A stretch of 64,000 bases of DNA from Owenia fusiformis (Eukaryota > Annelida > Polychaeta > Sabellida > Oweniidae), in NCBI GenBank assembly GCA_903813345.2, contig CAIIXF020000004.1:13765196-13829195 (forward strand). Direction: 5' to 3'. The notes beneath the pieces were generated by a model, which was not told the origin of the DNA, ran no database searches, and worked only from the letters and a program-made list of their open reading frames with translations. Positions 4,298-36,957 of the stretch are shown here, one piece after another; the stretch's first letter is position 1, and each line of letters starts with the position of its first letter. Position numbers and translations under genes: made by a program.

Positions 4298-4312
4298 CTT
4301 CATTTTATGACG
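4298..4312 (+). promoter_or_regulatory. conserved upstream element of mucin gene 1
   Basis: CTTCATTTTATGACG lies 158 bp before the start codon and is identical in all three paralogues. A looser AGGAGG stretch precedes it in each. The core TTTTATGAC, read as GTCATAAAA on the other strand, fits the consensus of caudal (Cdx) and posterior Hox proteins. The factor assignment is inference. Confidence 0.5.
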
Positions 4313-4469: not shown

Positions 4470-6328
4470 ATGGATTCGAAGACGGATTATCTCCGCCTTT
4501 TATCACCTAGCAACAGTGCTACCAGCAGCAGTACCACAGCAACTTGTATAAGCGATAGCAACGACGTTGGCAATGCCAGTACCACCAATACCAGTATCGT
4601 ATATCAAATCTCACAACAAACCTGGAACATCGATGATATTCCCCATAAGGGGCGTGGTCGTTCTTGGAGCACTTATGAGCCTAACTGGCTCAGCCTTACC
4701 GGTGCGGCATATGATACAAATGAGGACGAATTAAACCTTCCTAAAATAACGAGCGAAAGAAAAAGCGGGTCAATAACCGCTGTTCCAGGCGTTATAGACG
4801 ATCAGGGAATACCCGCTGAACTAGACTGTAACTCAATTGGAGAAGGATCGCAATTTAATGTTATTCCACCATTGGTGATTCCACTGAAGGAAGATACAAA
4901 ACAATGTTGTGATGCTCAGACTCAAACTGACAAAAGGAAGAAATCAAAATGGTGGATCTTACTCCTATTGCTTCTCTTATTATTGTTGATAGGTGGCGCT
5001 CTTACGATTGGACTGTATTTTGGAATTGTATGGCCAAACTGTAGGTTATATTTTAAGTCTTATAGAATTGATAAACTACCTATTTGGTACTAATATATAG
5101 TAAATTAATAGCTTGCCCGTCGTCAGTTTTTACCAATGGGGGGGGAGGTCTTACCAAGGGAGGAACTTTTTTACAGTTTGGGCCAAAAAATTAGAAAAGT
5201 GCCAGGAATGGCCGGAAAACTGCATGATTTTGAAACAATTTCTAGCCATGAATATTTACGCTTGAAGAATAATACAGATTAGTGAAATATCAGTTCAATG
5301 ATGTAATATTAAACGTAATCGAAAAAGCCTCCGCCTATTATATATTTCTAATTCTTTTTCAGCACCAGATACGCAACCAAGAGAGACAACTACCTCATCA
5401 AGATTACTGACTGCGATATCATCAACAGGTACATATTCAACACAACGTTTTACCATGACAACAAAGCAACACGTCACCGAAACAGAACTGCCAACAACAA
5501 CCCCCCTTTCAACGCTGACAGCACACACAACAGAGGTAACTACGGAAGTACAGACAACAGAAGCTAGTACGACAGAAAAACGAACGGCAGAAGTTTCAAC
5601 AACAAAAACACAAACAACAAATGTACACACAACAGGAATACATACAACAAAAGTACAAACAACAGAGTTGACAACGACAGAAGTGCCAACGACCGAAATC
5701 CCAACCACAGAAGTATCGAAAACAGAAGTTCCAGCAACCAGTAAAACTCCAGTAACAACTGATTATGTTACCACAACGGTGGTCACTCTTTTCCCAGATT
5801 TGTGTAAGTTTGAGGCTGATAACATTTTAAGATAGTTTGACTAATCTCTGCTTGATTGATTTTGTCTCTTGTTCATATAATAGTAAGAATCAACCAAAGT
5901 AAGTCACTCATTTTCGAATTGATAGACATAATTTGAAATCAAATCCAAAGAAATTGTGTTAACTTTAATCAACCAAAATTATCCAATATGATTTTATTGG
6001 CTACTAGTATTTCAACCCAGTTTCATATTGTTTGTTGGAGTAAGGGCAAACCTAAAATCAGCTAAACTACATATAACTTAATCCCGTGATCACAACTATG
6101 CACCAACGCTTTAATGCATTTGCTTGTTTCCTTTCAGCGGATTACTGTTTTGGAGAACCAGATGGGACGAACGCCCATCCACACATGTGTAGACAATTCA
6201 TCACGTGTCGAAACCAAGAGACTCTCATTCAGACATGCGCAATAACAACATGTTATGATGAAGGAATGGGCGTCTGTATACGTTGTGAGGCAGTCGACTG
6301 TGGGTCTAGGTCGACTGATGAACCGTGA
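4470..6328 (+). CDS. type II membrane mucin with C-terminal chitin-binding module, copy 1
   Basis: Three exons are predicted: 4470-5040, 5363-5803 and 6138-6328 (400 aa, both introns phase 1, donors GTAGGT and GTAAGT). There is no signal peptide. The N-terminal tail of about 160 residues carries LLSPSNS, RSWSTYEPNWL and CDAQTQTDKRKKSKW. A Leu-rich helix follows, ending GLYFGIVWPN. Basic residues before the helix put the N-terminus inside, so this is a single-pass type II protein. Exon 2 is a Thr-rich stalk of about 147 residues with TTEVPTTEIPTT-like repeats, probably O-glycosylated. Exon 3 is a Cys module with spacing C13C5C9C4C7C and the NAHPHMC and FITC signatures of peritrophin-A/CBM14 chitin-binding domains. 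The acceptor could also be six bases downstream, at 5369. The exon model is supported by identical phases in two paralogues. The ligand and the tissue are unknown. Confidence 0.85.
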
Positions 6329-6510
6329 CAATGATAGAAAGAAGAATTAACGATACAAAATCGTCCACAAATTATAATATGCATTTGTCGATTGAATCAA
6401 CTCAAGTACCCTAACAATATGGAAATTATATTTCAGAATAATTCAAGACAAATAATGTTCTGGTTCGCATACATGCCAGCATGGGGCGTAGTTTGGAATT
6501 TCTACATTGA

Positions 6511-7158
6511 TAAGTCAACCGTTGACGTGTGGCATATATAAGTCAATCGTTGACGTGTGGCATATATAAGTCAATCGTTGACACGTGGCATGTAGAAATC
6601 AACCGTTGACGTGTGGCATATATAAGTCAACCGTTGACGTGTGGCATATATAAGTCAACCGTTGACGTGTGGCATATATAAGTCAACCGTTGACGTGTGG
6701 CATATATAAGTCAATCGTTGACACGTGGCATGTAGAAATCAACCGTTGACGTGTGGCATATATAAGTCAACCGTTGACGTGTGGCATATATAAGTCAACC
6801 GTTGACGTGTGGCATATATAAGTCAATCGTTGACGTGTGGCATATATAAGTCAATCGTTGACACACGCATGTAGAAATCAACCGTTGACGTGTGGCATAT
6901 ATAAGTCAACCGTTGACATGTGGCATATATAAGTCAACCGTTGACGTGTGGCATATAGAAGTCAACCGTTGACGTGTGGTATATAGAAGTCAACCGTTGA
7001 CGTGTGGCATATAGAAGTCAACCGTTGACGTGTGGCATACAGAAGTTAACCGTTGACGTGTGGCATATAGAAGTCAACCGTTGACGTGTGGCATATAGAA
7101 GTTAACCGTTGACGTGTGGCATATAGAAGTCAACCGTTGACGTGTGGCATATAGAAGT
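6511..7158. repeat. 28-bp minisatellite, about 23 units
   Basis: The unit is close to GTCAACCGTTGACGTGTGGC plus ATATATAA or ATATAGAA. Each unit contains the perfect inverted repeat GTCAAC-C-GTTGAC. The first half uses ATATAA endings with a variant unit (ACACGTGGCATGTAG) recurring every 140 bp, at about 6581, 6721 and 6861. This is a five-unit higher-order repeat. The second half uses ATAGAA endings. The array begins about 180 bp after the stop codon of mucin gene 1. Confidence 0.95.
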
Positions 7159-8378
7159 AAGACGTGTAATAAGACCGTTGTTTGTGTATCCCACAATTGT
7201 CCATTTTCACCTGTTATAATACAGTTTCACATAGGGTTAGATAATGTTATCACTTGATGAATGCAATATCCACATTGGAGATACAGAGGTCACCTCGTGG
7301 ACCACATGTGGCGTTCGGCGATCATCGGAACTACAACTTTTACTGAATATAGGGAAAATAATCTATTTGCCTACACGAGTTAAACAACTTCTTTAGCATA
7401 TTTGAGTTGAAAAAACATTGCCTTGCTTGATATAAATATGAGCTATAACACATTAGAGTATAAACATAACCGTTACGGTAAATTTAATATATAAAACTAA
7501 TAAATATGATATAAATTAACAAATAAAAAATATATGACCGGGGAAATATGATATACATTCCACTGTACGAAACGCCATCTGGGAAGTATGCTATTTAATT
7601 CAGTAGATATAGACAGGGATATGCAGTGTTTCAAATGTTTTTATAACGTAACACTGCAGGAGACATTTATAATGTCTTCTTATTTCCGAGTCTCACAGGG
7701 GCACTAGCTAGATGTTGAAATTAGCCAGATAGAAAATAATATACATATACAGGTACGTTTAAATCAAGTAAAACACGTCTTCGTCCAAGTAGGACGATTG
7801 CACTTTTATTGTTTGAACAAGGCACGGGTTATCAGTGTGTGAAATTTAATTTCCAATAACCCAGATGCGAGTAGAAATAATCTTGATTTACGTCATTAAA
7901 AATTCAAAATTCAGTCAAAGTAATATCATATTTGAAATCTACATGTAAAATTACATCTAGAAATGTGGTTTTAAAAAGTGTTTATCAACTTTGAAAAATT
8001 ACTTTTCTTTGAAAATGTGACTTCTAGCTCGGGGAGATTCCCCATAGACCCCATGCTATAAAATCACAAAAAAATGAAATATCTTTCCTTTTAGTGGACA
8101 GATAATGTTTTGCTTTACTGGACATATTTTCATTAGTATAAGTATTAGACACATAAGGGTTATATGAAAATTGAGCCACTTAAATTGATAATATTCAAGT
8201 TTAAGGGAACTTTCTTATATACCTGCCATGTTAACTGACCCGAATCAGCCACCTGGTGGTGAAACTGGTAACTACCTACTCGCATTTGGGTAATTAGCTC
8301 TATGCCGGTAAATCGAACTGACGAACAGGTAGATACTTGTATATTTAGAGGACATTTAGTGTTTAAGTGGCTATACAC

Positions 8379-8500
8379 AGGGCGGTAACAAAAGTCTCTC
8401 CATTGCTTAATTTATTGGATCAGATTATCAATGTCCATATTTGAGAGGCAATTATTTGATAATTCAATAGTCATATAATCTGTTAAGTGAATAAGCAGGG
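8379..8500 (+). repeat. dispersed repeat, related to 21375-21500
   Basis: GGCGGTAAC, then TCTCCATTGCTTAATTTATT and GGATCA, recur in the same order and orientation near 21384-21425. The type of element is unknown. Confidence 0.6.
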
Positions 8501-8606
8501 GATGAATGTTAACTGACATTTCTAAATGTACATTTTTGACTGTCATATCAGAATACTATGACCATTTATCGAATAGTTTCACTTCACTATGCGCATCGTC
8601 TACATT

Positions 8607-8744
8607 ATGCCTGGGTCACATTTGCTCCAATCCATCGGCCAGCGCCCGGCCGATTGAGTGTTTTTTTCAATATTGTATTCAATTTTGAACAAGATACTCG
8701 GCCGGGCGCCGTAGTGAAAATCTGAGCATATGTGACCAAGGCAT
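8607..8744. mobile_element. short fold-back MITE
   Basis: ATGCCTGGGTCACATTTGCT at the left end mirrors AGCATATGTGACCAAGGCAT at the right. GC-rich inner arms (GGCCAGCGCCCGGCCGA and TCGGCCGGGCGCC) pair as well. The element is 138 bp long and non-coding. Confidence 0.7.
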
Positions 8745-10270
8745 CACTGTGTGATGTAAAATGTAAACCTATGATATTCGTTAGTTTGAAAAACAAATCA
8801 TAAATAAGGCTTGAATTGACATCAATGTTTCACGCACGTATTTGTCAGAAGTATTTTTTAATTTAATCAAAATAGAATTCTTTATTAAATTTGATTTCGA
8901 AAATAATGTAATTCTTGTACAAATTGGCATTTTTTGTAAAATACATCACAAGTCTAATACGAAATCGTTAAGCCTGTTTAAAAATGTCGACTACCTTGGT
9001 AAAATATGGTTATCTGCATCTGATTTGTAACATGGTATTTTGGGTTTTAGCCTTCAAATCTGCCAATCCTTCGTGTTATACGAAACAATGATCAGTGCTT
9101 CAAAATAGTCAATTCCAACCACTTCAAGCTCTTAAAATGTCATAAGAAGGGTATCGCAACGTGATTTAATAAGCCTGCACACTAATAACTACAATTGTGA
9201 AATTGAACAAAGTTCAATTTAAAACTCCAGATTCTGACTTTTCTTGGCCTTGATTCGACCTAGGTCTTAACCTTGATCATGTTGACTTTGATTATCATTT
9301 TTGCCTTCTTCGATAGTTTAAAACTACCTGTAGTTTAAACTAATAAAGATAGTCATTTCATTAAAATTGGAGACATTTTGGTTGACCTATATTTGGATAC
9401 CATATCTCAAAACTGGGTTAAACACAATAATCTGATGGCAAGACCATTAGCTTCATCTTGTATATTAGTGAACAAGGTTTCAAAGAAAGATATGTATATC
9501 ATCTTGGTCCTCTTGAATCATTTTAAGCTACTTGAAACAAAGACATTCCAATTTGGATTCTATATCCGGAATCCCGATGAAATGCCCCATCAATTTTATA
9601 CCAATATCATTAAATTATGTAGACCTAATTTCTGGACACGAACGTCTCAAAATTCGATGGTGAAAGGCTTGCATACCCTTAGCTAATGTGCCCACTTTGT
9701 TATTTTACTTGTAATTATAATATGTAAAAAAAAATAACGTAACATAACATAACAACATAACATAACAGCATCTATATGCTTTTCAAAGAAAATTATATCA
9801 GTGAAGCGATGGTGATTTGACCTAGATTTTGACCTTTGGATGGAAGTGTCCAAAATTTGTGTCAATGTAACTTTATGGGTGCTCTTCCGTTATTGACTAT
9901 ATCTTATTTTATTTGTATTCAGTTTGTATCTGCTATTTTTCCATTCATATTTTTCTTCGGCGCCATTGAGTTAACATGGTGATATCATCATTTCGATTCT
10001 TCAAGAATTCAAAAGGTCATGGAATCGTAGCAGAGATCGCATCTAAATCATGATTGCAGATCAGGAATTCTAAGAGAACTTTACATCACTTTGATACCAA
10101 TAACATTTTGACACGTTTCGCTTGCCTAAGTTTTGGACAATGACATCTAGAAAAAGGTAAAAGTAATCAAAAAGTGTCTGTCCATCGAACTGGCAAAAAC
10201 AATAGACAAGCCAATTTACAATCTGGAGTCTCATAAAAAGATTGTCAGGAGGTAGAGTATTATTGGACCA

Positions 10271-10285
10271 CTTCATTTTATGACG
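10271..10285 (+). promoter_or_regulatory. conserved upstream element of mucin gene 2
   Basis: This is the second exact copy of CTTCATTTTATGACG, 209 bp before the start codon. It is preceded by the shared AGGAGG and TTATTGGACC context seen in gene 3 (TTATTGAACC). Confidence 0.5.
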
Positions 10286-10493
10286 ATTATTTCAAATCGT
10301 TAATCTGAAATTGATTGGGTGTCGTGAATTATGTAATTATACTAACATGGACGTAACCGTACAATAAAGAGACATGGGGTTGGTAAACTAGTTGTTTTGA
10401 AGGATCGGACAAAAAATACAACCTACACATACGTAAAGAGGGGAAAGGACAATTGAAACTTTCTGTTTTCCAAGTGGACACATCTACAAAGAC

Positions 10494-13400
10494 ATGTATG
10501 ACCATCTTGGCTTGCTGTCACCTAGAAACAGCACTAGTAGCAACAGTACCACTGATACCAGTATCAGTGATAATGTCACGGATCCAACCATGCAAAACAC
10601 CGAGGATGTATTCTTCAGGAAAAGTAGACGTTCTTGGACCACATACGAGCCGAATTGGCTTGGGATGAGTGTCACGACAGGTGATGCAAACGACATTGAT
10701 TCTAATTTACATCAAATAGGGGGGATAAGAAATAAGGTGTCGAGTAGCGCTACTGACTCAACTATTGTAGAATTTCAGGATGACCAATACTGTAGTTTTG
10801 ACTCTGAAAGGCCATCAAAAGATATTCTCTCGGGGGCCGGTTCGATTACAGGAGAACGTCAATTTTGTGATGCTGAAACCCAAACTGTCAAAAGGAAGAA
10901 ATCAAGAAGGCGAATTGTATTATTGCTGCTCCTACTTCTGATGCTAATCATAGGTGGCGCTGTTTTGATTGGATCGTATTTCGGAATAGTTTGGCCTAAC
11001 GGTAAATTTTGTTTAGGATGTTGTTGGATAAAAAAAAGTAAAAAGTTAATTGAAAAATTTGTATAATGTTCATAAAAATACAATTATTTTTTTTTATTTC
11101 GGGAATAAACGAAACGTGGTCGGTTTCGGCCAGTGTTAAACCGTTACACATGCCGATTTTATCGAAAACAAGGTCACGACGATACCCAGATCTTGACAAT
11201 AAAAGTTGCGTTTGGTTTTGTTTTCCAGAACAGCATTTCATAGTCACTTCATAACATTTCATATTGTATATGTCAATTTGATTTAACAACCGTATTGGTA
11301 AATATCCTTTAGTGGCCTTCTTGGGCTCATCACATGAAAATAATAAGAAAAAAATTTGAATCTCGCTTTGGCGGTTTAGGGCCCCGTGCAAAAAAATCTC
11401 GAAACTTGTGTATACTTATTTAAGACAAAATTTGACGATCTTCCTGAAAAAAAACTATAAAGAGTTTTGTGATCGAGTGTCTTAACGGTACGATTTTGAA
11501 TACTTCGTTTACAATAGTTTACTCGGCTGAGAACTTCAACCCCTTACCCGTTATTGGTATGAAAATGCAAATTAAGTGAATATGAAATAGAATAGAAGAT
11601 AAACACGTTTTCAAGCAGAACGATCTATTTTTATAAAACGACAAACAAAACGATACCAAAATATTTTACTGATATTTTTTAAAAGTCCTCTTCTAAAACA
11701 CTTGACATGGGTTATCATGGATTGAGCTTATAGCCTCGGTGAACATGATACGAGTCACACTCATGACAACGATTAGTAAATGCTTTTTAATTCACTAGAT
11801 TGTAGTATAACAATTATTTCAGTACCTATTCAGATTACAAAATACCGGTTTTGAACATTTTTTAGTATAAAATATCAATGTATGAATGTTCAAAGGGACG
11901 CCTGCATTGTTGCGCAGCAGTTACAAAAGCGTAGAATACAAATAGATAAATAGAAATAGGAATATCGATAATAAACAGATATCAGTAGTGCATGTAGTAT
12001 GACCTATGACATAGTTAAGGAAAGAGGGTTGATAACAGAGTGTTTAAAACAATCCTGAAATTGTGATTAATCACAACAATTGCAATAAAACTATAAACAC
12101 TGCACAGTGGATTAAGTAGGCGATATAAAAACAAAAGCTAAAAGGATGAGTGTCATAACACCCATAAAATAAAGGGACTTTTGAAAAATAAAATTTATTT
12201 CTTATTGTTTATCAAATCTTAATTAATGTTAAGCATACTTGATAATTTTTGCAAAGTGCATTAAACGTGTCCATAACAAGTGGCCGCCATTAAATATGAA
12301 CCCCTTTCTCGTTTTAATAGTACGTGCAAAAAAACCTATTTTGTTTTAGTGTTTTAACGTCATTGAGATGCATTTTAGTTATATTGTGTTTTATTGTGAA
12401 GACGCACCTGTGAAGGTATGCCGCTGGTACAAAAGCGCGGTTCTAAATAAATAAATGAATAAATATTTAAAAAATGAATTAATTAATTAATAAATGATAA
12501 ATAAATATATAAATAAGTAAAAATATATACTATATATATAAATAAATAAATAAAATTATCGAGATTTCAAAACTATATAGAAATTATTCTATTGGCTTAA
12601 GATTCATTTCCCAAAAGTCGACATTCACTGAATAGGGGATTCAACATTTTCTAAATGCAATACGTGATTTATCTATACCATTAATATATCAATATCGATT
12701 AAAAAACATAAATTAATGTCATCTTAAGATACTGACTGTTGAAGTACAAGTTTTATTTTTAAAAATACTCTGCTGTTATCAATACTAACAATATCGTAAA
12801 GAGGACTAAAAATAAATTTCGAATTTAAACATTTATGAATTTCATCGTGGATATTTTGACAAGGAACTCTTTAGATAATCGTAACAAATCACAATAAATA
12901 AAACGTCTCTTATGTGTACTTGCAACCACTTGGTATATAATCATGGTTCGGATAATTGGTTGTCTTGACTATATTGAACTTTCGTAGAAATTCGTAGATA
13001 CAAGTTCTGAATGTCCTACATGAAGTTCAGGAACTCAGAACACTATTATACAGAGTGACACAAAAATGCCTCCCACTTATTTTGGAATAACTTTCTCAGT
13101 AATGAAGAAACCTTCATGATTTTTATGTGTAGATAGAGTGTTCAATGGAAGGGGGATTGGTATGCTTGCATAGCATCAACAACTTGAAATTAAGAAATAT
13201 CTCATTTTCCGCGGAGGCATGATCTGACACAAAATCACTCAAATATGGAAATAAAACAATCTGTCTTTCTAAAATTTACACAATGAACCAGTCAGTTCAT
13301 TAAATAACAAAATTGTTTAAGAAAAATGGGAAGGTGTGACATATAAATTATAAATTATGTGGAAGGAATCCAGAAATGACTTAAATAATTGCTAAGACAG

Positions 13401-16400
13401 AAATCCCATTTTCAGAAAATTGTATTTTTTAACATCTTCACAATTTCACCGAGAGCATACCTGGACAAAAAACGTGATATCTCTAAATCTCAAAGTTGTT
13501 GATGCTACACAAGTAGAACAGTCTTTCTCCCATTGAACACTCTACACGCATTTTTATGTCACCCTGTACGTACAGTAAAACCTGCCTAATCCGAACACCA
13601 CTAGGGCTGGCTAATGTTTGAATTAACAGGTCATCAAAGGAACCCGAGTTGTTTGTAAAATGAATCTTTAGGATTATATGGTGCAATCTTATAGTCAATA
13701 AAATGTTTTAAAGTGTATTGATGTTTTTAAGATAGAAAACAAGAAGAAGTCATCGTGAGGTACTAGTAACTGTGACAGGTTTTATGTTTTCATGTTTTCA
13801 AATTTTCTTTACTATTAGATAGACATCCAAACAACGAGACAACTACAACATCAGAAGAACTGCCGACAACAGCACAAACGCGATTGAACTCCCCTCAGCT
13901 AGTATCAGTTGCCTCCCACAAACCAGACACCCCAACACCGGTCACAGTATTGTCATTTATTTCTCAATCGCCCCCAGTTACAACAAAAGTGACTTTTACA
14001 GAAGTTACTGAGACAGAGGTATCGACAACAGCAATAAAGGCAACAGAAGTACCAATAACTACAGGTGCTACGACAGAAGTACATACAATAGTAACTACGA
14101 CAGATATACCAACATCCACCATAACTACGACAGAACTACCAAAACTTACAGCAACTAATACAGAAGTAACTACAACTATAGTATCTATAACAGAAGTACC
14201 TACAACTATGATAACATCAACAGAAGTACCTACAACTTTATCAGCTACGACAGAAGTACCTAAAACTGCAATAGTTACGACAGAAGTACCTACTACTGTA
14301 ACTTCGACAAAGATATCCGCAACTACAGTAGCTACGACAGAGATGCCAACATCTTCAGTAAGTACGAACAAAGTACCTACAACTGAGGAAATTACAACAG
14401 AAGTACCTACTACAGTAACTACAACAGAAGTAAATGCTTCTGCAACTTCAACGGAGGTGCCCGCACCTACCGTACCTCAGACAGAAATATCTACAACTGC
14501 AGTAAATGCAACGAAAGTACCTACAATTGAAGTAAATTTGACAAAAGTAGCTTCAAATACAGTAACCAGTGCCGAAGTACCTACAACTACGGAAACGACG
14601 ACAGAAACAGTATCTACGACAGAACTTCTACCAACAACTTCAGGGGACACGATGGAAGTATCAACAATTGCAGTAGCTACAACAGAAGTACATACATCTC
14701 AGGGAATCAAGACAGAAATATCTACAACTGGAGTAACTACGTCACAAATACCTTCTACTATTACTTCGACAAAGACTCCCACAAATACAGTAACTATGAC
14801 AGAAGTACATACTACTGTTACTTCAACAGAGGTTCCAACAACGACAGTAAGTACGACAGAAGTGCCTTCAAGTGCAGTAACTATGACAGAAGTACAAACT
14901 ACTGTAACTTCAGCAGAGGTGCCCACAACAACAGTAAGTACGACAGAAGTGCCTACAACTGCAGTAACTACAACAGACGTACCTAAAACTGCAGTAAATA
15001 CGACGGAAGTGCATACTACTAAAACTTCCAAAGAGGTGCAAACAACTTCAGTAAGTATATCAGAAGTACCTACAATTGCAGAGACTACGACAGAAGTACT
15101 TACAACAGCAGTACTTTTAACAGAAGAACCTACAACTGAAGTACCTATGCCAGAAGCACACACTACTGTTACTTCGATAGAGGTGCCCACAACGACATTT
15201 AGTACGACAGAAGTGCCTTCAAGTGCAGTAACTATGACAGATGTACATACTACTGTAGCTTCAACAGAGGTGCCCACAACAACAGTGCGTACACCAGAAG
15301 TGACTACAACTGCAGTAACTACAACGGACGTACATAATACTGCAGTAAATACGACAGAAGTGCATACTACTGTAAATTCGAAAGAGGTGCAAACAACTTC
15401 AGTAAGTTCATCAGAAGTACCTACAACTGCAGCAACTACGACAGAAGTACCTACAACGGCAGTAAATACGACAGGAGAACCTACAACTGCAGTACCTATA
15501 TCAGAAGTACATACTACTGTAACTTCGATAGAGGTGCCCACAACGAGAGTAAGTACGACAGAGGTGCCTACAACTGCAGTAACTATGACAGACGTACCTA
15601 AAATTGCAGTTAATACGACAGAAGTACATACTACTGTAACTTCGATAGAGGTGCCCACGACGACAGTATGTACGCCAGAAAAACCTACAACTGCAGTTAC
15701 TGCAACAAAAGTACCTTCAACTGCAGTATCTTCGACAGAAGTACCTATAACTGCAGTTACTATGACAGAAGTACCTACAAATACAGTAAGTACAACAGAA
15801 GACAATATTACAGTAACTTCTACAAAAGTACTTACAACTTCAGTAAGTACAATAGAAGTATCTACATCTTCAGTAACTACGACAGAAGTACCAACACTAG
15901 CAGTAACTTTAACAGAGGTACCTTCAACTGTAGTAACTACCACAGGAGTATCTACAAATTCAGTAAAGACAACAGAAGTATCTACGACAGCAGTAACTCC
16001 GACAGAGGTACCTACGATTGTAACTACATCAGAGATACCCATAACTACAGTATCAACGATAGAAGTACCAACTACCATAACTACAACTCCAATTCCAGGT
16101 AATGCTTGCAACATGATACTTAAGAATGATAGCAAGAGATCATATGATATTGGATTTACATTAATTCAGGAAAAAGATTCTGGCTACACACCAAGAAAGA
16201 TTTTACAAACAATTTAGTCGCCAGGGATGCAAACCACCAACACAGAAAACGGAGACCATAAAACTTAAAGTACAACTAAAAATGAACATGTTTTTGAGGG
16301 ACCTTATTATGCATATTGAAAGAGTTTCACTTAGTCTAAAGCGCTATTAAACATTGGGAGTTTCCACATACATGTGTGAGTATTCATATATTTCAAATTT

Positions 16401-16735
16401 GAGATGAGATGGTTGGTAAGCAAGTTTTGAAGAATTCAAGTTAAAAAGTAACCACCCAAGTCACGTTGTCGCGCACAATCGGTCCATTTTTGGTAGCTGC
16501 GTATATCAAGGATGTTAATACTATCTATATTCTTCTTAGTTGTACTTATCTGTATAATTTGTTCTGTTTAGATTGCGAAGCAGAATGTGCTAAAAGAGGC
16601 GACGGTGTGTATATTCATCCTAGCAAGGGTTGTTCCTGGTATTGCCAATGCCTTGACACCCAGTGGTGGGAAAGGCCTTGTCCTGAGTCGACATGCTTCA
16701 ATGAAGACATACGGGCGTGTGGACACGCTCCCTAA
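10494..16735 (+). CDS. type II membrane mucin with C-terminal chitin-binding module, copy 2 (long stalk)
   Basis: Three exons are predicted: 10494-11001, 13819-16098 and 16572-16735 (983 aa, both introns phase 1). The start matches the conserved DHLxLLSPxNS block of copy 3. The cytoplasmic tail has RSWTTYEPNWL and CDAETQTVKRKKSRRR, followed by a Leu-rich helix ending GSYFGIVWPN. The stalk is about 760 residues of T-T-E-V-P-T-T repeats, about five times longer than in copies 1 and 3, and very rich in Thr, Val and Ser. The last exon encodes C14C5C9C4C7C with CSWYCQC and CPESTCFNEDIRAC, a peritrophin-A/CBM14-like module. Uniquely it contains an RGD tripeptide (AKRGDGVY). Intron 1 is 2.8 kb, against about 0.3 kb in the other copies, because a mariner MITE and AT-rich repeats have inserted. 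A long antisense ORF over the stalk is a by-product of the repeat. Confidence 0.85.
12440..12557. repeat. AT-rich AAAT-type simple repeat
   Basis: Runs of AAATAAATAAAT, TTAATTAATTAA and TATATATA fill this part of intron 1 of mucin gene 2. The preceding sequence, ending GCGCGGTTCTAAATAAATAA, could be the tail of an old retroposon. Confidence 0.7.
13051..13566. mobile_element. mariner-type MITE in intron 1 of mucin gene 2
   Basis: The ends CAGAGTGACACAAAAATG and CATTTTTATGTCACCCTG are inverted repeats flanked by TA duplications. The arms extend inward (ATAGAGTGTTCAATGG pairs with CCATTGAACACTCTA). The element is 516 bp, with no transposase frame. Confidence 0.8.
13980..16090 (+). repeat. coding VNTR of the mucin gene 2 stalk
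   Basis: Tandem 27-30-base units encode mostly TEVPTTAVTT or TEVHTTVTS. A higher-order repeat of 351 bp (117 codons) is visible: GAGGTGCAAACAACTTCAGT recurs at 15033 and 15384 with similar flanks. Units differ from each other, but the frame is never broken. Confidence 0.9.
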
Positions 16736-16794
16736 GAGGGATATAAAAGTTGACAGTAGAATTACATTCCGGTGTCAGAGTAAATATAGTCTCC

Positions 16795-16890
16795 CTGGAT
16801 ATATGGTCCGATGGACCATACACCCCAGGACACCAGTTTCTCCATACCTGGTGTCCTCGGGTGTGTGGTCTTAACCGGACCATATGTTCT
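16795..16890. repeat. imperfect hairpin repeat downstream of mucin gene 2
   Basis: TATGGTCCGATGGACC and CCAGGACACCAG at the left fold onto CTGGTGTCCTCGGG and CCGGACCATA at the right. It resembles a small fold-back MITE. TGGTCCGG-like words also occur near 19232-19275. Confidence 0.55.
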
Positions 16891-17097
16891 GTATTGGTAA
16901 ACAATATGACCCACTACTATATATACTGACGACTATAAATATGTTAACAGCAGTGAACGAATAGATTGTCCGGCTAGATTTTGGTCCTATCTGTTATCTT
17001 TATTTTTAAATGTATAGATGTCGAAAGAGGATCTAATGACACAAATTTGAAACAAATTTCCCTACCATTATTCATCTTTGCGAAATTAGCAATTTAA

Positions 17098-17806
17098 GGT
17101 GGCATATAACCCTGTTTATTTTTTCGTGAAGCCACTCAGCAAAATTACGATTTCTCTGCATCCTGATGTCCAATCAAGATCATTCGAGTATCTATATCAC
17201 TCTATCAGTGAAATAGGAAAAACAAAAAGGTGTGATATTCTTTCAGGATTGCTTATACAGTATTAACTATTTACAAAAATGTTCCCGAGACACAAATCTA
17301 TTTAGGTAAGGGTTTGTTTTAAAGTCAGAAAGCCCCAATGAGACAATACAAACCCAGAGAAAACCCGAAAACAAAGTTAAGAAAACAAGTAAAGTACACC
17401 CAATCCCCATATAAAACACTGGCCTACGTGACATGTACTAACATTTTCAAACTGTATTATAGAACCTTTTCAATATGGCATTTGCTTCCATGTTCTGTAT
17501 ATCCCTCTACCAGCTTAATAAGGCAAATAAAACCTTAGCCAAGTAGATAAGAGTCTATGGAACACTTTTGTAAATAGTTTTCACAAGCAATTTTGTTTGT
17601 GTATCTCAAATTTTGTCTTCCCGATTTCAGTCATACATTACGTCAATATAGCCTGCAAACTCTGTGTTGACGTTGTCATTCTCGAATGCCCAAACGTGTC
17701 AGGAGCACAAAGATACTCAAATGATCTTGATTGGACATCATGGTGCAGAGAAATCGTAATTTTAATGGGTGGCTTCACGAAAAAATAAACAGTGTTATAA
17801 GCCACG
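17098..17806. mobile_element. MITE with TTAA target duplications (piggyBac-like)
   Basis: TTAA occurs at both borders (17094-17097 and 17807-17810). The terminal inverted arms are about 110 bp. GGTGGCATATAACCCTGTTT matches the reverse of AAACAGTGTTATAAGCCACG, and both arms share AAAATTACGATTTCTCTGCA. There is no coding frame. A related single arm lies near 50732-50800. Assignment to piggyBac rests on the TTAA duplication only. Confidence 0.75.
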
Positions 17807-17829
17807 TTAATCTCGGTTTCCTTTTTTGA

Positions 17830-18960
17830 GACACCCTGTACAGGGCTTAACGCTTAACCAATACTGTATTGTAAAATTGTAAAATGTATGTTTACCATGT
17901 AACTGTATTGTAATTGTTTTTTGCAATTGCTTTAACATGCTTATTCTTTGAAATAAAAAAATATATAAAATAAAAAATAAAAAAACACGCAATAAGTAGT
18001 TATCTCGTAAAATCACAAAACTAGTGATGACTACATCAATTTCATTTAATGTACCATAAAGCCATGTCTCTCCTCTTTGCAATGATATGTCATTCATTCA
18101 CATGTGGTAATGGTTGGGTGAGAAATCCTTCCATTTGCACAGTGGGTCAAAATCGGCTTTGCGCCAAGTTTTAGATATTGAAAAAATTAGTGCAAGGGCT
18201 AAGTGCCAATGGAAGTTCCCCTGATTTGAATTGTTATAACTTTTTCTTTTTGGATCTATCTCAGGAGCATCTGTGCTCACAATTCCTCCACCAGATATTG
18301 CAAAACCTCGAGAAAGATTTGCCCATGGGCTGCTTTTCTTTGCTTTAACCCACACATGATTCAGGGCTGAACCATGCATGACGTGGACAGATGAGCGCAT
18401 CTTTATAGGCAAGGAAGTGGTGGCAATTTGGAGGGGTATATGATGTATTCTTGCAAGAGTATGAGTATGAACACTTTACTGTCTATGCCATACCTGTCAC
18501 ACCTTCTTCAAATAGCCCCTATGCCCCTTGTACTGACTTTTGCAATGTTTTTAACTTGGCTCCGTGCTGAATTTTGCCCCACTTTGCAAAATTATGATTA
18601 TTCGGCCAGAGATGACTCCCTGTGAATGAATGATATTCCATTGTAAAGAGGAGTAATTTGGCGTACATTGAAGTAAAAGGATGCAGTCAGCATTGGTTTT
18701 ATGTTTTCGTCCAATATTGCATCGGGTTCCGTACACTGACTTTTGCAATGTTTATAACTTGGCCCGAAGCTAATTTTGGCCCACTTTGCAAATGGAATGA
18801 TTACTCACCCAACCATGACTAAATATCAATGAATGATATATCATTGTAAAGAGGAGACACATGGCTTTATGGTGCATTGAATGAAATCAATGCTGTTATC
18901 ACTGGTTTTGTGCTTTTCCAAGATAACAATCTGTTGCGTTTTTTTTTGATACGCACTGTA
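17830..18960. mobile_element. non-autonomous element with inverted arms
   Basis: 18023-18170 is repeated in reverse at 18759-18915, sharing CCTTTTGCAATG-like and ATTCACCCAACCAT-like words. A third, direct copy of the arm lies at 18535-18712. The left end is adjacent to a mariner-like end (GAGACACCCTGTA). No transposase frame was found. The exact borders are uncertain. Confidence 0.55.
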
Positions 18961-19949
18961 TAGTAGTACTGTAATATGTACTTATTTGATATCTTATCGA
19001 TGAATTAAAAACACGACATAATTGCACTCGATTCACTGATTTGAATCATTACTAGGGATATAGCACCACGGGAATCATCAAGCCCGTTTGATTTTTTTGT
19101 TTGTGAAAGAATAAAATAATGGTGATGGGTGACATAGCAGTATTACATGAACGGTCTTGTATGTCAATGAACTATTAATTATACAAAGACTTCATTTATA
19201 TACATGTGCATGGACATTTATGACCAGAAAATATGGTCCGGTGTAACTAGTTGGACATTTATAATCAGAAAATATGGACCGGTGTGACTAGTTAGAGACC
19301 ATAATTTAGTGTTTAAAGTCCGCCCCGGACACCCAGTTCTAGCAAACGGACTAAATACCTAAGGAAATATAGTTCACCAGCCTTGTTATTCTAGATAATT
19401 TAGTCCTGGAAATTATTTTCCAGGACTTATAGTCTACGGGACCATATTTAGTACGGTCTATATAAACGTTGACACCTGCTGGCTTATAGCGAATGTGACT
19501 GAGGCTTCCATACTGCATATTTCCCTTGGTTTTCAAATGTAGACACTATGTCATGTCCAGAAATATTGTATTTTGTAAAGCAATTGACTATGTCGTGCTG
19601 TAATGTATAAAATCTGAATTCCCAAAAATATTTTAACTAATGACATGATGTGAATTGAAAACTAAAACATTATTATAATTTTTAATAGAAACTAAAAATT
19701 TGAATTTCACAAAACAGTTGCTTTAACATTTGCAAAAAGATGGCATGATAGTCGTAATGTTTTTAGCAGCCGTAAGTACTTGAAACATGTTGGCATAATG
19801 GTGCATTCTCTGCACAACGCTCAATTACATTGATAACAGCATCGATGGCTTTTTAGGGGCAAGCAGTATCTTATTTGACAGAAACATTATCTATTGTTAC
19901 ACATCATCAGTCACTGGGCTCGTGTGGTTTCACTTCAACATTTTCATTA
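18961..19949. other. intergenic, short tandem duplication inside
   Basis: About 41 bp is duplicated in tandem at 19212-19293; both copies share CAGAAAATATGG and ACTAGTT. A small hairpin follows (TAGTCCTGGAAATTATTTTC with its mirror CCAGGACTTATAGTC). No gene was seen. Confidence 0.5.
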
Positions 19950-20211
19950 CAGGCCTCCTAGACTATCATCAACGCGAACAGCAGATCTGACATCGCGAAC
20001 TACGATCCTTGCACTCAAACCAAACCACGATCGGGCGTGTGGTTCGCGAGCACTGATCTCTGTTCGCAAGTGGAGAAATATGTTCGGGAGCGAGGAAATG
20101 GTGGTGCACGACTGAAGATTTCACGTTCGTGATGTGAGAATCGTGAGTGCAAGGAACGTAGTTCGCGAGGTAAGAACTGATGTTCGCGTTGATGGAAGTC
20201 TAGGAGGCCTG
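19950..20211. mobile_element. 262-bp MITE with 5-bp CATTA duplications
   Basis: The inverted ends CAGGCCTCCTAGACT and AGTCTAGGAGGCCTG are flanked by CATTA on both sides (19945-19949 and 20212-20216). The inner arms pair over about 70 bp and include AACGCGAACA and TCGCGAACTACG. The element is GC-richer than its surroundings and non-coding. Confidence 0.85.
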
Positions 20212-20216
20212 CATTA

Positions 20217-21955
20217 TTTATTTAGATTAGTGAATCACAATGTCATGATAGTATCAGTCAATATATTCAAACACCTGGGCAACTAGCGTCATTATGTATA
20301 AAGGATAAACGATGAGCCTTGGGTATCATGTGAAATAATAGCCAAGGCTATTTTCTCACTCATAGGACCAAAGGCGAATTGTTTATCTAACTTTAAAGGC
20401 CCACTTCGCGTAAAGACTTACATTTGAGTTTCATTGTATTTCCAGTGTATTGATAAGAACCTTATCTTTCATTTGACACCAACAACAGCTCAAACGGACC
20501 ATATGAAAGCTTACAATAAATTATCAAAAAACATTTTCGATCAGTCAAGCTTTATATAGCAACTTTTTATCAATGTCATTGAAAGATGGCGCAGGTGTTT
20601 ATATTACATGATACATTAATATTAATAGAAGTGTTGCCATCTTTTAAATCAAGAGTAATTAATAATATGCTCTTTGTTTAGCATGAGTATGGACCACTAA
20701 TGATCTCTGAACTTCAAATATTTTTTCTTTGCGAGTTTTTTTTTCTTGGTTCAATATTAAAGCAAATCAAACTTTGTGTCATATTTGAGCGAGTGTGTGA
20801 GTAACATGTTTCAATGATTTTTTTCTTGACTCTTTGTGAAAGGTAAATGATCCATGATCTAATCTGATTCAACCGTAGGCATTATGAGTTGATGTATGTA
20901 ATATAAGTGAGCGAGTGGGCTATATTAGTTCAGCTTCAGTACACTGCATGTAACAGGCCAGATTTAGTGTAAACTTTGATTTCGTTTTTATTTGTTATTC
21001 AACTATTGGGTAAGGAAAGAAGGGTGTACAGTGTAATTTGTTTAGCATCAGTACATTGTATATGACAGTCCAGACGTAAATATTGAGTTTGAATAGAGCA
21101 GGATATTTGTAAGCTTAGATCAATAATGTAGATAGCAACACAAATAATTGATAAATTGTTGCGAAAAGGGTACATGCTAATTTCTCTTGTTTTTAGGGGA
21201 TGGAAACTATCAAAAACTGTCAGTCGTCATTTGTGACACAAATACACGTCTGTGTTGGTTGCTTATGAACACCAAATGCAAGGTTTAGTAGAGTGATAAA
21301 GGCAGATCGACCTGACTGAAAGGTGGATACTTTCATATTTATTGGCGACTTATTGGCCAAGTGGTCAATACTCCAGGCGGTAACTTAAATTGAAGTCACT
21401 CCATTGCTTAATTTATTGGATCAAATGATCAATTACCAAATAGGAGAGGCTTTTCAGTAATTTTTTATAAACATAAATAAACGTTTATTTGTTTTTATGT
21501 GTTCAGTGAAAAAGCCCGAGATGAATGAAAGAAAATGTTCTGACCATTTATTAGGTAATCTAGAACAGTGTTATATTCTACTCATTTTACTTATTTTGTA
21601 ATGAAAATATATAACAGTATTGTCCATCTGTACTTTTAATTGCAAATGGTTGAGAAAATATATGTGAGGTGCAAATAGCATATTGAATAATCCTGTGCAC
21701 ATTATTGTATATTTTAACGTTGCCACACAAGAGTTCGCGAAGAATGAGCTTTGAGAGGATTTTGATTCCTAGATTTTACTTTAGTTTCGCTCTCAACTTT
21801 TCTGAAAATTCTCAGCAAAAAGTGGAAAAACGAACATTAATTGTATGCGGAAAGCATTAATTCTTATAGTTTCATTTGAAATTCTTTGCAAAAGTTGAAA
21901 TTTCTTGCACTCGATATTTGCAACACGATGCTATTAGTTATCTTTCAAACATGCT
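20217..21955. other. intergenic upstream of mucin gene 3
   Basis: No exon was recognised. It includes the second copy of the dispersed repeat seen at 8379-8500 (here about 21375-21500). Confidence 0.45.
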
Positions 21956-22180
21956 TAAGCACTGATGGTTCCAGGAGGGGGGGGGGCTTTTTGTTGGCCC
22001 AGAAAAATTGTGAGGGTCCCAAATAATTTAGACCTTTAAAAATGGTATGGCCTCAAAAATGGGCCTTTTGGGGCACAATTTGGCCTTTTGGCCAATTTGA
22101 GGGCAAATTATCAAAAAAATGGGCCTTGCAGTTTTAAAATTTGGGCCCAACTTGTTAGCTTCTGGATCCGCCAGTGCTTA
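21956..22180. mobile_element. hAT-like MITE
   Basis: TAAGCACTGATGGTTCCAG at the left mirrors CTGGATCCGCCAGTGCTTA at the right. CAGTGGCGGATCCAG-type ends are typical of hAT elements. The inside is low-complexity, with repeated GGGCCTTTTGGG-like words and a long G run. Confidence 0.6.
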
Positions 22181-22375
22181 GTTTACATATGTAAAAGTAA
22201 AGAAGACCAGTGCTTTTAAACAAATTAAAGTATATTCATTTGTCATTTTCAATCACTTTAAGAATCTTAAAGTTCACAAAAAGGGTACCATGCCATCATC
22301 TTGGAGGATTTGATAATCTTTTCAACCTACACACCAATAATAAGGTTGTTAGGAGGGAGCCGTTTTATTGAACCT

Positions 22376-22390
22376 CTTCATTTTATGACG
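22376..22390 (+). promoter_or_regulatory. conserved upstream element of mucin gene 3
   Basis: This is the third exact CTTCATTTTATGACG, 284 bp before the start codon, with the same AGGAGG context. The larger distance partly reflects a local tandem duplication at 22542-22601. Confidence 0.5.
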
Positions 22391-22541
22391 GGTATAATCT
22401 TTCTAATTTAAAATGCATAGTGTTGGATTATGTTAATCAGAGAAAATATCAACATAGACCATAATGAAATCAGTTGGTGGGGGTTTATTCATTCATAAAA
22501 ATCAGACGGAGAATAGGCGTATAAGCTTTATATCCTAGAAA

Positions 22542-22601
22542 AAGAGGGGTGGAAATTGGAAATACGATACACAGAGGGGTGGAAATTGGAAATACGATAC
22601 G
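22542..22601 (+). repeat. 30-bp tandem duplication in the mucin gene 3 promoter region
   Basis: AGAGGGGTGGAAATTGGAAA followed by TACGATAC occurs twice head to tail. A related single GTAAAGAGGGGAAAGGACAA lies just upstream of mucin gene 2, so the motif predates the gene duplication. Confidence 0.7.
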
Positions 22602-22673
22602 CAATTTTGTTAGAAACAGTCTTGTATGAAAAGTGACAGTTTTTTGGTTATAGTGGACACGTTCTTATAAGAC

Positions 22674-24367
22674 ATGACAGCCGAGATTGACCATCTTAGC
22701 CTCCTGTCCCCTAGCAACAGCATCAGCGACAACAGTACACCTGACACCAGTGGCAGTGGTAACGTAACGAAATCAATCATCCATAACATTGAAGACATAT
22801 CCATTAAGAAAAGTAGACGTTCTTGGATAACGTACGAACCGAACTGGCTTGGACTGATCGGGACGGCACGCGATGATAGCGATCTTGATTCTTATATACA
22901 TCAAAAATCGGAGAGAAGAAATAGCGACTCGATAAGCGCCACTGACTCAACGATTGAAGAGTTTATGGACAAGCAATACTGTGATTTTGATTCGGAAAAG
23001 CGTCCAAAGGTAACTTTTCCAGATGCCGTTTCGATTATAGACGATGGAAGTCAATTCTGCGATGCTGAAACCCAAACTGACAAAAGGAAGAAATCAAGAT
23101 GGCGGATTTTATCATTGTTTCTCTTGCTTCTCCTGTTGCTGTTAATGGGTAGCGGCGCTATCACCAGTGGAGTGTATTTTGGAATAGTTTGGCCAAACGG
23201 TATATTTTGTTTTGGTTGTTATAAAAAAAAAGGTTAAATTAAAAAATTGTTAAATGCGTGTAATGATATACATAAAATTACCATTTAAATGTATTGTACT
23301 TACTTACACATTAAGATCATCTTAAGTGTCGTACCATCAACCTTTAAAAAGCACAATTTTAAAATATTTTCCTAACAGCAATGTATATCATGACATCTGT
23401 CTTCTTTATGATACTCAGGCGTGTAAATGAAAAATCGGATGAGCAAGATGTTTCGTTTACTATAACTGGTCAATAAACTGACTCATTATTTCTATATTGT
23501 TCTTAAGCTCTAGATACACAACCAAACAACGCAACAGCTTCAATGGAAACTCAGACGGCACAATCGTCAAAAAATACAACAGAATTTACAACAAAACTAT
23601 TAACAACAGAACTACCTGCGACAGAAGTATCAACACCAAAAGTTACTACGACAAAAGTACCTACAACGGCATCTGCCACGACAGAACTACGTACAACGAC
23701 CACAGCTACAACAACAAACGTACATAAAATCACAGCTACTACGACAGAAGTACCTACAACCACAGTTACTACGACAGAAGTACCTACAACCAAAGGCACT
23801 ACGGCAAAAGTACCTACAATCACAGCTACTACGATAGAAGTACCTACAGCCACAACTTCTACGACCAAAGTACCTACAACCAAAGATACTACGGCAAAAA
23901 TACCTACAACCACAGTTACTACAGCACTTACTTCTCTTTTATCAGGTATTGCATCATTCAACGACTTTCATTTTTCATTGATCATTGAACCAAAGGAATT
24001 TAATCAACGTGAAGACAACTGTCCACCATTTGTAGACAATGGAATCGCACCAATTCAAAAGGTTTGCTAATCTGCGCTAATAACACTTTCCCAAGTCATT
24101 TGAACGTTGTGCAATCCAACACTTAATACAATACTCTGGATAAACTCCATATCTTAACCCTTTCGGTACATACATAACTAATTGCAATCATTATATTTTG
24201 TAGGTGGAACTTGCACTGATATGTGCGTAGCGTGTGGAACATGCGGTTACGCAGATCATCCTACTTTTCCATGTACTAAATTCTGCCAGTGCTCTAATGA
24301 AATCGGACATGAAATAAGTTGTCCTCCGAACACTTGCTGGAATAGTGAATCATCTGTGTGCACCTAG
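22674..24367 (+). CDS. type II membrane mucin with C-terminal chitin-binding module, copy 3
   Basis: Three exons are predicted: 22674-23199, 23514-23945 and 24204-24367 (373 aa, both introns phase 1; the acceptor could instead be at 23508). The tail contains DHLSLLSPSNS, RSWITYEPNWLGL and CDAETQTDKRKKSRWR, followed by a Leu-rich helix ending GVYFGIVWPN. The stalk of about 144 residues is built of TTEVPTTTVTT-type units. Exon 3 encodes C12C5C9C4C7C with CTKFCQC and CPPNTCWN, the CBM14-like pattern, plus extra Cys residues at its start. It is closest to copy 2 in the cytoplasmic tail. Like its neighbours it should be a cell-surface mucin with its chitin-binding end outermost. That topology follows from the lack of a signal peptide and the basic residues before the helix. 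Confidence 0.85.
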
Positions 24368-34922: not shown

Positions 34923-35577
34923 ATTAAAAGCGGAAGCTGAATTGCGTTTCGTTCTGTGTAGCCTCGATCCAAACCCGGAAATGAAGTGCAAACAAAGAGA
35001 AATTTTATAAAAATAAACACTTCATCACAATATAGGAAGAATATATGGACGTTTGAATGTTGTATCTATGCTACGGTAAGTGTAAATCTCTGGTTTTTCA
35101 GTCAGGATGCAATTTTAGTCACAAAATGAGACTAAAGAACAAATCTCATGATTGAAATTGAATCACTCAGATTTTTAATTTTTTGAAAAGGTACTCAAGA
35201 TTCAGTTTCAACAAAGTCAACAAACATTGGAGACCTAAGGAGAATTGGCTCCAAGGGACACATCTCTATATTTTCCAGCAATGAAAATGTCACAGTGTTA
35301 TTTTGTTGTTATTTTCTGAAAGTTGCCTTTGTGGTGTATTCAGTAAAGTTAAATCTTTTATGTTGGCAACAAGTTCATATGGTTAAGATAAGGAAATGAT
35401 GTGATGTAACCACATATCTACTTACCAGTATGTTCTCAGCCATCCTGCGGACTAGTAGGTCATATTTTTATTTCTGTCAAACCAGACTATGGAGGCAGTT
35501 CTCTCAGGAAGTAAAAATTAATTGAACAAGGCACAGACGCTAACAATATCGTACCTAAAACACAGCAGTGTGACAGT

Positions 35578-36217
35578 GAAGAATTTAGGACGGAAAGTCC
35601 AAAATGGCCACCTTCAAATTTACCCAGAATGCCCAAAAACTAATCAGTTCTTAACTTTGATACGTAGAAACATCCCTGAAAAATTCAGATGAATCCATCA
35701 AATGGTTTGGCTGGAAACCTGTAGACAAGTCTTGAAAGTGAAGATTTTAGGACGGAAAATCCAAAATGGCCACCTTAAAATTAACCCAGAATGCCCAAAA
35801 ACTAATCAGTTGTTAACTTTGATACGTAGAAACATCCCTGTAAATTTCAAATGAATCCGTCAAATGGTTTGGCTGGAAACCTGTAGACAAGTCTTGAAAG
35901 TGAAGATTTTAGGACGGAAAATCCAAAATGGCCACCTTAAATTTTACCCAGAATGCCAAAAACTTATCAGTTCTTAACTTTGATACGTAGAAACATCCCT
36001 GAAAATTTCAGATGAATCCGTCAAATGGTTTGGCTGGAAACCTGTAGACAAGTCTTGAAAGTGAAGATTTTAGGACGGAAAATCCAAAATGGCCACCTTA
36101 AAATTTACCTAGAATGCCCAAAAACTAATCAGTTCTTAACTTTGATACGTAGAAACATTCCTGAAAATTTCAGATGAATCTGTCAAATGGTTTGGCTGGA
36201 AACCTGTAGACAAGCTG
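35578..36217 (+). repeat. four tandem copies of a 160-bp unit
   Basis: Copies start at 35578, 35740, 35902 and 36063 with GAAGATTTTAGGACGGAAAA and run through TGGCTGGAAACCTGTAGACA. They differ at few positions. AATATCGTACCT flanks the array on both sides, and the right flank forms a TATCGTACC/GGTACGATA hairpin. Confidence 0.95.
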
Positions 36218-36957
36218 AAAAGTGAGACGCCACCCGCCCGCCGCCCGTCAAGCTGACTACAATATCGTACCTTTATTAGGTACGATAAAAATTCCATTTG
36301 ACGTCAATATCTCTTAAAGCAGTTCGTTCAGAGTAATTCTACCTCAATCCTTCATGAGTTTGATACCAATCTGCCGAAATGTAAATGCCTGTTTTAGTCT
36401 CTTGTTTTAAACATCTTGTTTTGTTCAAAAAACGCCACTGTTGGCTTCTACGGTACTTATTTTGCCATAATGTGGTATCAATTTACATTTATATTACAAA
36501 ATTAGCGATTTGGGTCAAAAATAGTTCCCACATGGACAAGTTTATTGGGCATTGGCCAATATTCAAAATGGTAGCAAACGTGACTTACAATAAATCGGTG
36601 CTAATATCTCAAAGAGTAATCTGACTCAATATAATTTTAGGTAGATTAATCTGACCTCTAGATGAAGTAGTACATTTTGACATATAGCACAATGGGAGCA
36701 AGGGTTTCACAGTTTGTCACTTATGCATATATGTGAAAAATATGTTTGGAATTTTCAAAATTCATGTTTGATTATAGTACTTGCACCTCACGTTGATTAA
36801 GAAAATAATGTGACCTACTTTTAAAATAAGCATTTTTGTGTGTATCATACATAATTATCATAAGAATGTTTATGAAAGATAAATTTCTTATATTATAGAT
36901 ATCCTTTGTTATAAAGAAATGAAGCAATTATGTTAGTAACTGCCAGAAATAAGTGGA

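Follow-up and report, generated by a model that had tools for sequence, protein, structure and literature searches.

A tandem cluster of candidate type II membrane mucins with a chitinase-type CBM14 tip in the annelid Owenia fusiformis

A stretch of 64,000 nt from the polychaete annelid Owenia fusiformis (GenBank assembly GCA_903813345.2, contig CAIIXF020000004.1, positions 13,765,196 to 13,829,195 of the forward strand; hereafter, the window) contains three tandem genes, designated G1 (4470-6328), G2 (10494-16735) and G3 (22674-24367), all of them on the + strand. The three share a common plan of three exons and two GT-AG introns, both in phase 1, with an in-frame stop codon in exon 3, and the spliced products would have 400, 983 and 373 amino acids (aa), respectively. 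In each gene, exon 1 encodes a putative cytoplasmic tail and a transmembrane helix, exon 2 is Thr-rich and exon 3 is Cys-rich. From their sequences, the products are most likely tethers or receptors for chitin at the cell surface, in which a mucin-like stalk would present a CBM14 module related to those of chitinases.

We infer the exon junctions of G1-G3 from the sequence. All twelve splice-site coordinates proposed in an earlier first-pass annotation of this DNA were found to be right when read from the sequence, with GT-AG borders and phase 1 in the three genes. Its proposal of three paralogues with an identical three-exon, phase-1 structure is borne out by the models and by exon 2 which, of the three forward frames, is open in all three genes only in the frame that joins exons 1 and 3. 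The two unused frames contain 6 and 3 stops in G1, 72 and 13 in G2 (in 760 codons), and 2 and 1 in G3. The first intron of G2 is 2.8 kb long. Judging from these features, G1-G3 are conserved proteins rather than chance reading frames.

Exon 1 (4470-5040 in G1, where it also encodes the sequence YFGIVWPN; 10494-11001 in G2; 22674-23199 in G3) is 40-61% identical between pairs in tblastn comparisons. The ratios of nonsynonymous to synonymous substitutions (dN/dS) for the three pairs were 0.24, 0.23 and 0.34 (dN 0.415, 0.432 and 0.243; dS 1.76, 1.89 and 0.72, the first two, from pairs involving G1, being near saturation), and purifying selection acts on this exon. Three blocks of the tail are conserved in G1-G3: a [DE]xxxL[LIVM] motif near the start, RSWxTYEPNWL, and CDAxTQTxKRKKS before the helix. 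The first of them occurs once in each exon 1, at residues 6, 3 and 6 (DYLRLL, DHLGLL and DHLSLL in G1, G2 and G3, letters read by eye). This motif may be an adaptor-binding (AP) dileucine site, and TQT a putative binding site for LC8.

When the exon 1 proteins of G1, G2 and G3 were each searched against the host genome (498 Mb), no fourth copy was found, although a missing match does not prove absence. Two faint matches were rejected by eye: one on C2 to exon 1 of G1 (E 7.5), at a locus showing a presumed peptidoglycan recognition protein (PGRP) domain, and one on C8 to exon 1 of G3 (E 9.3), at a locus without a similar gene. At C2:28.46 Mb (L005:2280-5003), an open frame whose product has a single hydrophobic segment is followed ca. 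1.7 kb on by a PGRP-like stretch and is possibly, by eye, another type II surface receptor. The pattern YEPNWL occurs at three places in the genome, all in the window, but it is weakly specific because its reversed control gives two places. A Pfam scan of the full G1 and G3 proteins and of exon 1 of G2 returned only CBM_14 above the cut-off, leaving exon 1 without a domain. In PDB and NCBIfam, exon 1 gave as best rows EmrA (E 0.018) and SepX (E 0.0076, far under its cut-off), and both overlap the helix region.

Each protein has only one hydrophobic segment, which begins at residue 141-163 and is preceded by KRKKS. Over the 20 residues on its N-side the net charge is +4, +5 and +3 in G1, G2 and G3, and over the 20 on its C-side it is -1 in all three; since the charge is positive before the segment and negative after it, the N-terminus should stay inside. 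An AlphaFold2 (AF2) model of exon 1 built from three sequences consists of one helix (residues 161-187 in G1) and a tail that lies nearly all below 50 in predicted local distance difference test score (pLDDT; mean of the model, 47.5). We predict that G1-G3 are type II proteins, N-inside and C-outside, with an internal signal-anchor. The conserved cytoplasmic tail followed by one helix in type II orientation, as first annotated, is supported by the dN/dS values of exon 1, hydropathy, charge and the modelled helix. The N-terminal signal peptide and cytosolic C-terminus of type I membrane mucins were not found in G1-G3, for which the prediction places the positive flank on the N-side of the helix and the Cys-rich tip at the C-terminus. 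The same annotation held that an upstream signal-peptide exon reversing the topology would refute it. None was seen in the genomic sequence of G1-G3, where in-frame stops occur within 150 bp upstream of every ATG, and a spliced upstream exon is excludable only by RNA.

A conserved 15-base element is present upstream of G1 (4298-4312, + strand), with identical copies on the same strand upstream of G2 (10271-10285) and G3 (22376-22390). These lie 158, 209 and 284 bp before the respective ATGs, where the promoter could be, and the genome has six perfect matches to the element, of which three lie in the window, versus one for its reversed control. The possibility that this upstream block is an exon coding for a signal peptide was rejected by eye, the element being identical also at synonymous positions and not followed by a common donor. 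We regard it as a putative regulatory site common to the three genes, and its presence lowers the likelihood of a signal-peptide exon further upstream.

The stalk is encoded by exon 2 (5363-5803, 146 aa in G1; 13819-16098, 759 aa in G2; 23514-23945, 143 aa in G3). Its Thr content in the sole open frame, 37, 34 and 41%, agrees with the Thr-rich stalk first annotated, and Pro, Thr and Ser together amount to 50, 51 and 54%. Repeats of ca. 15-30 bp occur in all three stalks, and those of G2 are of ca. 30 bp; a long Thr/Ser/Pro-rich repeat region, as used to define mucins, is thus found in G1-G3. This composition suggests that the stalk is O-glycosylated. No SEA domain was matched in the Pfam scan of full G1, full G3, and exon 1 and the tip of G2.

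Exon 3 (6138-6328 in G1, 16572-16735 in G2 and 24204-24367 in G3) encodes the tip and the stop codon. The first-pass annotation assigned a peritrophin-A/CBM14-like module to all three tips and called for a search of exon 3 with a hidden Markov model of Pfam CBM14. With the Pfam CBM_14 model (PF01607, cut-off 22.1 bits), the assignment held for G1 (31.1 bits with exon 3 alone and 25.3 with the full protein) and for G2 (41.1 bits, exon 3 alone scanned), and failed for G3, which scored 19.9 bits with exon 3 alone and 14.9 with the full protein. Likewise, in a genome-wide CBM_14 scan in which 150 of 337 candidates were scored, the tips of G1 and G2 were among the 131 matches listed and that of G3 was not. 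Five of those listed fall in a single open frame of 3683 aa at C11:15407496-15411773.

The structure of the G3 tip was predicted by AF2 from three sequences with a pLDDT of 92.4. CBM14-type proteins occupy the first ten places of its Foldseek results (probability 0.98-1.00, E 5.8e-3 to 0.12); we take Der p 23, Avr4 and an Aplysia protein, which appear among the Foldseek rows, to be of this type. Comparison with VIA gave a Z of 6.7 for Der p 23 (root-mean-square deviation 1.8, 48 aligned), 6.0 for CHIT1 and 4.3 for tachycitin, the first unrelated row being at 2.9, and values of Z below 8 may reflect merely a common arrangement. The predicted model of the G3 tip has the CBM14 fold, and the annotation of this tip is upheld by fold (AF2, Foldseek and VIA) and not by Pfam score. 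The tips of G1-G3 may bind chitin.

The closest relatives of the tips in the host genome, as judged by sequence, appear to be CBM14 modules of chitinase loci, clearly so for G3 and thinly for G1 and G2. The genome contains 86 matches to GH18. The G3 tip is 63% identical (E 5.5e-19) to a CBM14 exon at C8:30.341 Mb, versus 34% to the G2 tip, and that C8 exon itself scores 22.5 bits with CBM_14, against the cut-off of 22.1. The C8 locus is on the minus strand, where GH18 matches are followed by a Thr-rich exon and, across an intron read by eye as phase 1, by this CBM14 exon and then another. For the tips of both G1 and G2 the best match outside the window was at C9:23.894 Mb, with an E of 7.1e-4 in each search; the match of G1 extends beyond its stop, and the second match of G2, with an E of 0.0013, is not labelled as chitinase. 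The C9 exon is the last of a locus with GH18 matches, and is preceded by a Thr-rich exon and a phase-1 intron. Both loci, whose exons were grouped by strand and order, contain the motif DGLDLDFE. The C8 and C9 loci share with G1-G3 the succession of Thr-rich exon, phase-1 intron and CBM14 exon. They also share with the G1-G3 tips, as does a third chitinase locus on C250, an extra Cys before an aromatic residue. In contrast, the three loci have GH18 domains, whereas no match to GH18 (PF00704) was found in full G1, full G3, or exon 1 and the tip of G2.

We compared 48 modules, comprising the three mucin tips, 12 chitinase-linked modules and 33 others. The sample was chosen, not random: it includes 40 stretches taken mainly from the 131 CBM_14 matches listed, with some matches from the tip searches, plus six modules from loci already under study, and L045 was dropped because of a stop. 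A module was labelled as chitinase-linked when near a GH18 match on the same strand, and some may be missed. The extra Cys that immediately precedes the aromatic residue occurs in 3/3 mucin tips, in 4/12 chitinase-linked modules, which come from the C8, C9 and C250 loci, and in 0/33 others. A first, loose pattern for this Cys matched 10/48 modules, three of them (L027, L032 and L036) at other positions by eye; exact spacing left 7/48. A second extra Cys pattern is restricted to G2, G3 and both C8 modules (4/48), and a C..C tail to G1, C9 and C250 (3/48), so that exon 3 of G1 resembles the modules linked to chitinase on C9 and C250 in both its extra Cys and its tail.

A tree of the 48 rows, based on 57 columns, joined the G3 tip and the first C8 module with a support of 99/98, and all three mucin tips fell within an 11-row group (92/88) whose other members are the first C8 module, the C9 and C250 modules and five more; the second C8 module fell outside. 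Of its 45 inner branches, 7 are starred, and long branches include those of the G1 and G2 tips (MUC_G1 and MUC_G2). Between G2 and G3, exon 3 diverges more than exon 1, both in the proportion of synonymous differences (pS; 95% range of the difference, 0.087 to 0.569) and of nonsynonymous differences (pN; 0.167 to 0.416), an excess that would also result from gene conversion of exon 1 or from fast change of the G2 tip. When the G2-G3 pair is compared with the pair of G3 and C8 in exon 3, pN differs (0.154 to 0.433) and pS does not (-0.454 to 0.187); the pS of exon 3 for G2-G3 is 0.714 in the three-way alignment and 0.778 in the pairwise one. For G3 and C8, pS is 0.905, which is saturated, and pN 0.21. 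Since synonymous sites are saturated and the protein is conserved, the G3-type tip looks old and constrained. Because the Cys pattern of the G2 tip is that of G3 and C8, fast change in G2 is favoured over a separate swap. As for the G1 tip, either it was acquired separately or all three tips derive from one ancestor and changed fast in G1 and G2.

The stalk and CBM14 end of G1-G3 resembles the linker and CBM14 end of GH18 enzymes. It was probably joined to the exon for tail and helix by phase-1 intron shuffling, an event that is, like its direction, inferred.

The window contains other features. Upstream of the cluster there is an exon of a rhodopsin-type G-protein-coupled receptor (1282-1974; PF00001, 68 bits), and just after G1 there are 23 copies of a 28-bp repeat (6510-7158) whose unit contains the palindrome-like GTCAACCGTTGAC. 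Further downstream lie a 162-bp tandem repeat with 4.1 copies and 94% matches (35571-36225) and an open frame for 1062 aa that resembles, by eye, the endonuclease/reverse transcriptase of a long interspersed nuclear element (37912-41100). They are followed by an open frame for 253 aa (45463-46224) with one hydrophobic stretch, then RRRR and a long tail, whose orientation would be type I (TMEM154, E 0.016, under the cut-off), and by a match to the C-terminus of inter-alpha-trypsin inhibitor heavy chain on the minus strand (52464-52862; PF06668, 31.3 bits).

Type I membrane mucins, such as MUC1, MUC16 and others, are membrane-bound and have an O-glycosylated stalk; their orientation is opposite to that predicted for G1-G3, which showed no SEA match in the parts scanned and would bind glycans at the tip. 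DC-SIGN and similar type II lectin receptors have a tail with a dileucine, a helix, an extended neck and a C-terminal sugar-binding domain. The likeness is one of analogy only, since DC-SIGN has a C-type lectin domain, which had no Pfam match in G1, G3, or exon 1 and the tip of G2, and G1-G3 have CBM14 and a Thr-rich stalk. Among insect group III chitinases, TcCHT7 is type II with a C-terminal CBM14, as predicted for G1-G3, but these enzymes have two GH18 catalytic domains in the position where G1-G3 have the Thr-rich stalk. They differ also in that no relative of exon 1 of G1-G3 was found outside the window in the host genome.

In the sections consulted of PMC5891080, TcCHT7, an insect group III chitinase, is described with an N-terminal transmembrane span, said to be without a cleavable signal peptide, and one C-terminal CBM14, in agreement with staining of the membrane fraction; OfChtIII is predicted to be membrane-bound and SfCHT7, also of group III, is reported as secreted. 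The arrangement of type II protein and terminal chitin-binding module had been annotated as unusual and without a named family. TcCHT7 provides a precedent for it, and what stands of that claim is the combination with a mucin stalk and an orphan tail. Among the listed titles and abstract openings of the open-access literature, none describes a type II mucin that combines a chitinase-type tip with an orphan tail that is conserved; the word transmembrane is absent from PMC3504105, and the word mucin from PMC11149249. The type II plan with a terminal CBM14 is already known from insect group III chitinases, and what is new here is the apparent kinship of the tips to chitinase modules. According to an excerpt of PMC9574080, GH18 enzymes commonly have a Ser/Thr-rich linker ahead of their chitin-binding domain. 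Secreted counterparts are also on record. Drosophila mucins combine regions rich in Pro, Thr and Ser (PTS) with peritrophin-A, in a survey that, as excerpted, found no transmembrane mucins yet calls Dumpy transmembrane (PMC2515642), and Ciona has the gel-forming mucin Ci-GFM1, with CBM14, and VCBP-C, with a signal peptide (PMC6109156, in part). All of these share PTS regions and CBM14 with G1-G3, which differ by their predicted helix and conserved tail.

Because their outer end carries a chitinase-like chitin-binding module, G1-G3 may hold chitin or similar sugars to cells. We consider it reasonably probable that they are type II cell-surface proteins whose glycosylated stalk ends in a chitinase-type CBM14 tip, binds chitin or a glycan rich in N-acetylglucosamine (GlcNAc), and serves as a tether. 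The disordered N-terminal tail of ca. 140-160 residues would lie in the cytosol, the signal-anchor helix would span the membrane, and the O-glycosylated, Thr-rich stalk of 143-759 residues would extend outward to a C-terminal chitinase-type CBM14 that would bind chitin or another GlcNAc-rich glycan. Its most likely role would be to keep a layer or particle that contains chitin at a fixed distance from the cell, set by the length of the stalk, and the tail, with its conserved acidic dileucine, would control position at the surface and the rate of internalisation.

Several points weigh against this reading. Support for the G1-G3 proteins is computational, and their topology is a prediction from hydropathy and charge. 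Pro is low in the stalk, 6-8%, despite its content in Pro, Thr and Ser. As to the tips, that of G3 stays below the Pfam cut-off and had no Foldseek row with an E below 0.001, and its VIA scores are below 8. Chitin is not necessarily the ligand of a CBM14 module, which may instead bind GlcNAc on glycoproteins (PMC2515642, in part). The 20 matches of the host genome to the family model of chitin synthase, which along with the 86 to GH18 speak for the reading, are exon pieces, and this model takes in other glycosyltransferases, since four of the 14 control genomes, all four prokaryotic, match it as well. With respect to kinship with chitinases, the difference in the extra Cys between chitinase-linked and other modules (Fisher p 0.0033) is descriptive only, because the sequences had already been seen when the pattern was defined, and because the sample was chosen. 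The tree joins neither the G1 tip to C9 or C250 nor the G2 tip to C8, and in an approximately unbiased (AU) test a single clade of the three tips (p 0.174) was not rejected, and nor was one of G2 with G3 (p 0.393); lacking these joins and rejections, both separate origins and an exchange of tips are unproven.

The tethering of a chitin layer, in particular, is a guess, and an uptake receptor fits the tail equally. G1-G3 could instead serve in endocytosis or signalling as receptors of chitin that is foreign or comes with the diet, from fungal, algal or arthropod particles; the tip would catch the chitin and the dileucine and other tail motifs would drive uptake, as in vertebrate type II lectin receptors. 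The dileucine-type match found once in each exon 1 and the other two conserved blocks speak for such receptors, but motifs so short and linear are weak evidence, no Pfam domain was found above the cut-off in exon 1 and the stalk of G2, at 759 aa, resembles a barrier or spacer more than the neck of a receptor, so that we regard this alternative as rather unlikely. It is less probable still that the helix or the stalk is cleaved and the part with mucin and CBM14 is shed as a secreted component of the matrix, like ordinary peritrophins, since a tail of this length, with three conserved blocks and under purifying selection, would be purposeless if the helix were merely a signal for secretion. Finally, the exons might be parts of different genes, or the models might be partly wrong, with missing or extra exons; the junctions of G1-G3 are predicted from sequence and the first intron of G2 is long. 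Against this, three diverged copies keep the same order, phases and splice sites, and exon 2 is open solely in the joining frame in all of them, which makes such an error very improbable.

An extension of the preferred reading, of cell-surface proteins with a chitinase-type tip, is that G1-G3 represent a class of chitin receptors in which the linker and CBM14 end of a chitinase was placed on an orphan signal-anchor exon. Its tip would then have been exchanged or have diverged, resembling C8 in G2 and G3, and C9 and C250 in G1, by Cys pattern, while the tail blocks stayed constant. We hold this to be speculative and rather unlikely; if true, the animal could read different forms of chitin via one internal pathway.

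To our knowledge, how chitin layers are attached to cells is poorly understood outside insects. For the fastening of such layers, as in the gut lining, the tube or the bristles, in soft-bodied animals, G1-G3 would be direct candidates for the link or for a receptor of chitin. They also suggest that the binding module of a secreted enzyme can be converted into a module of the cell surface.

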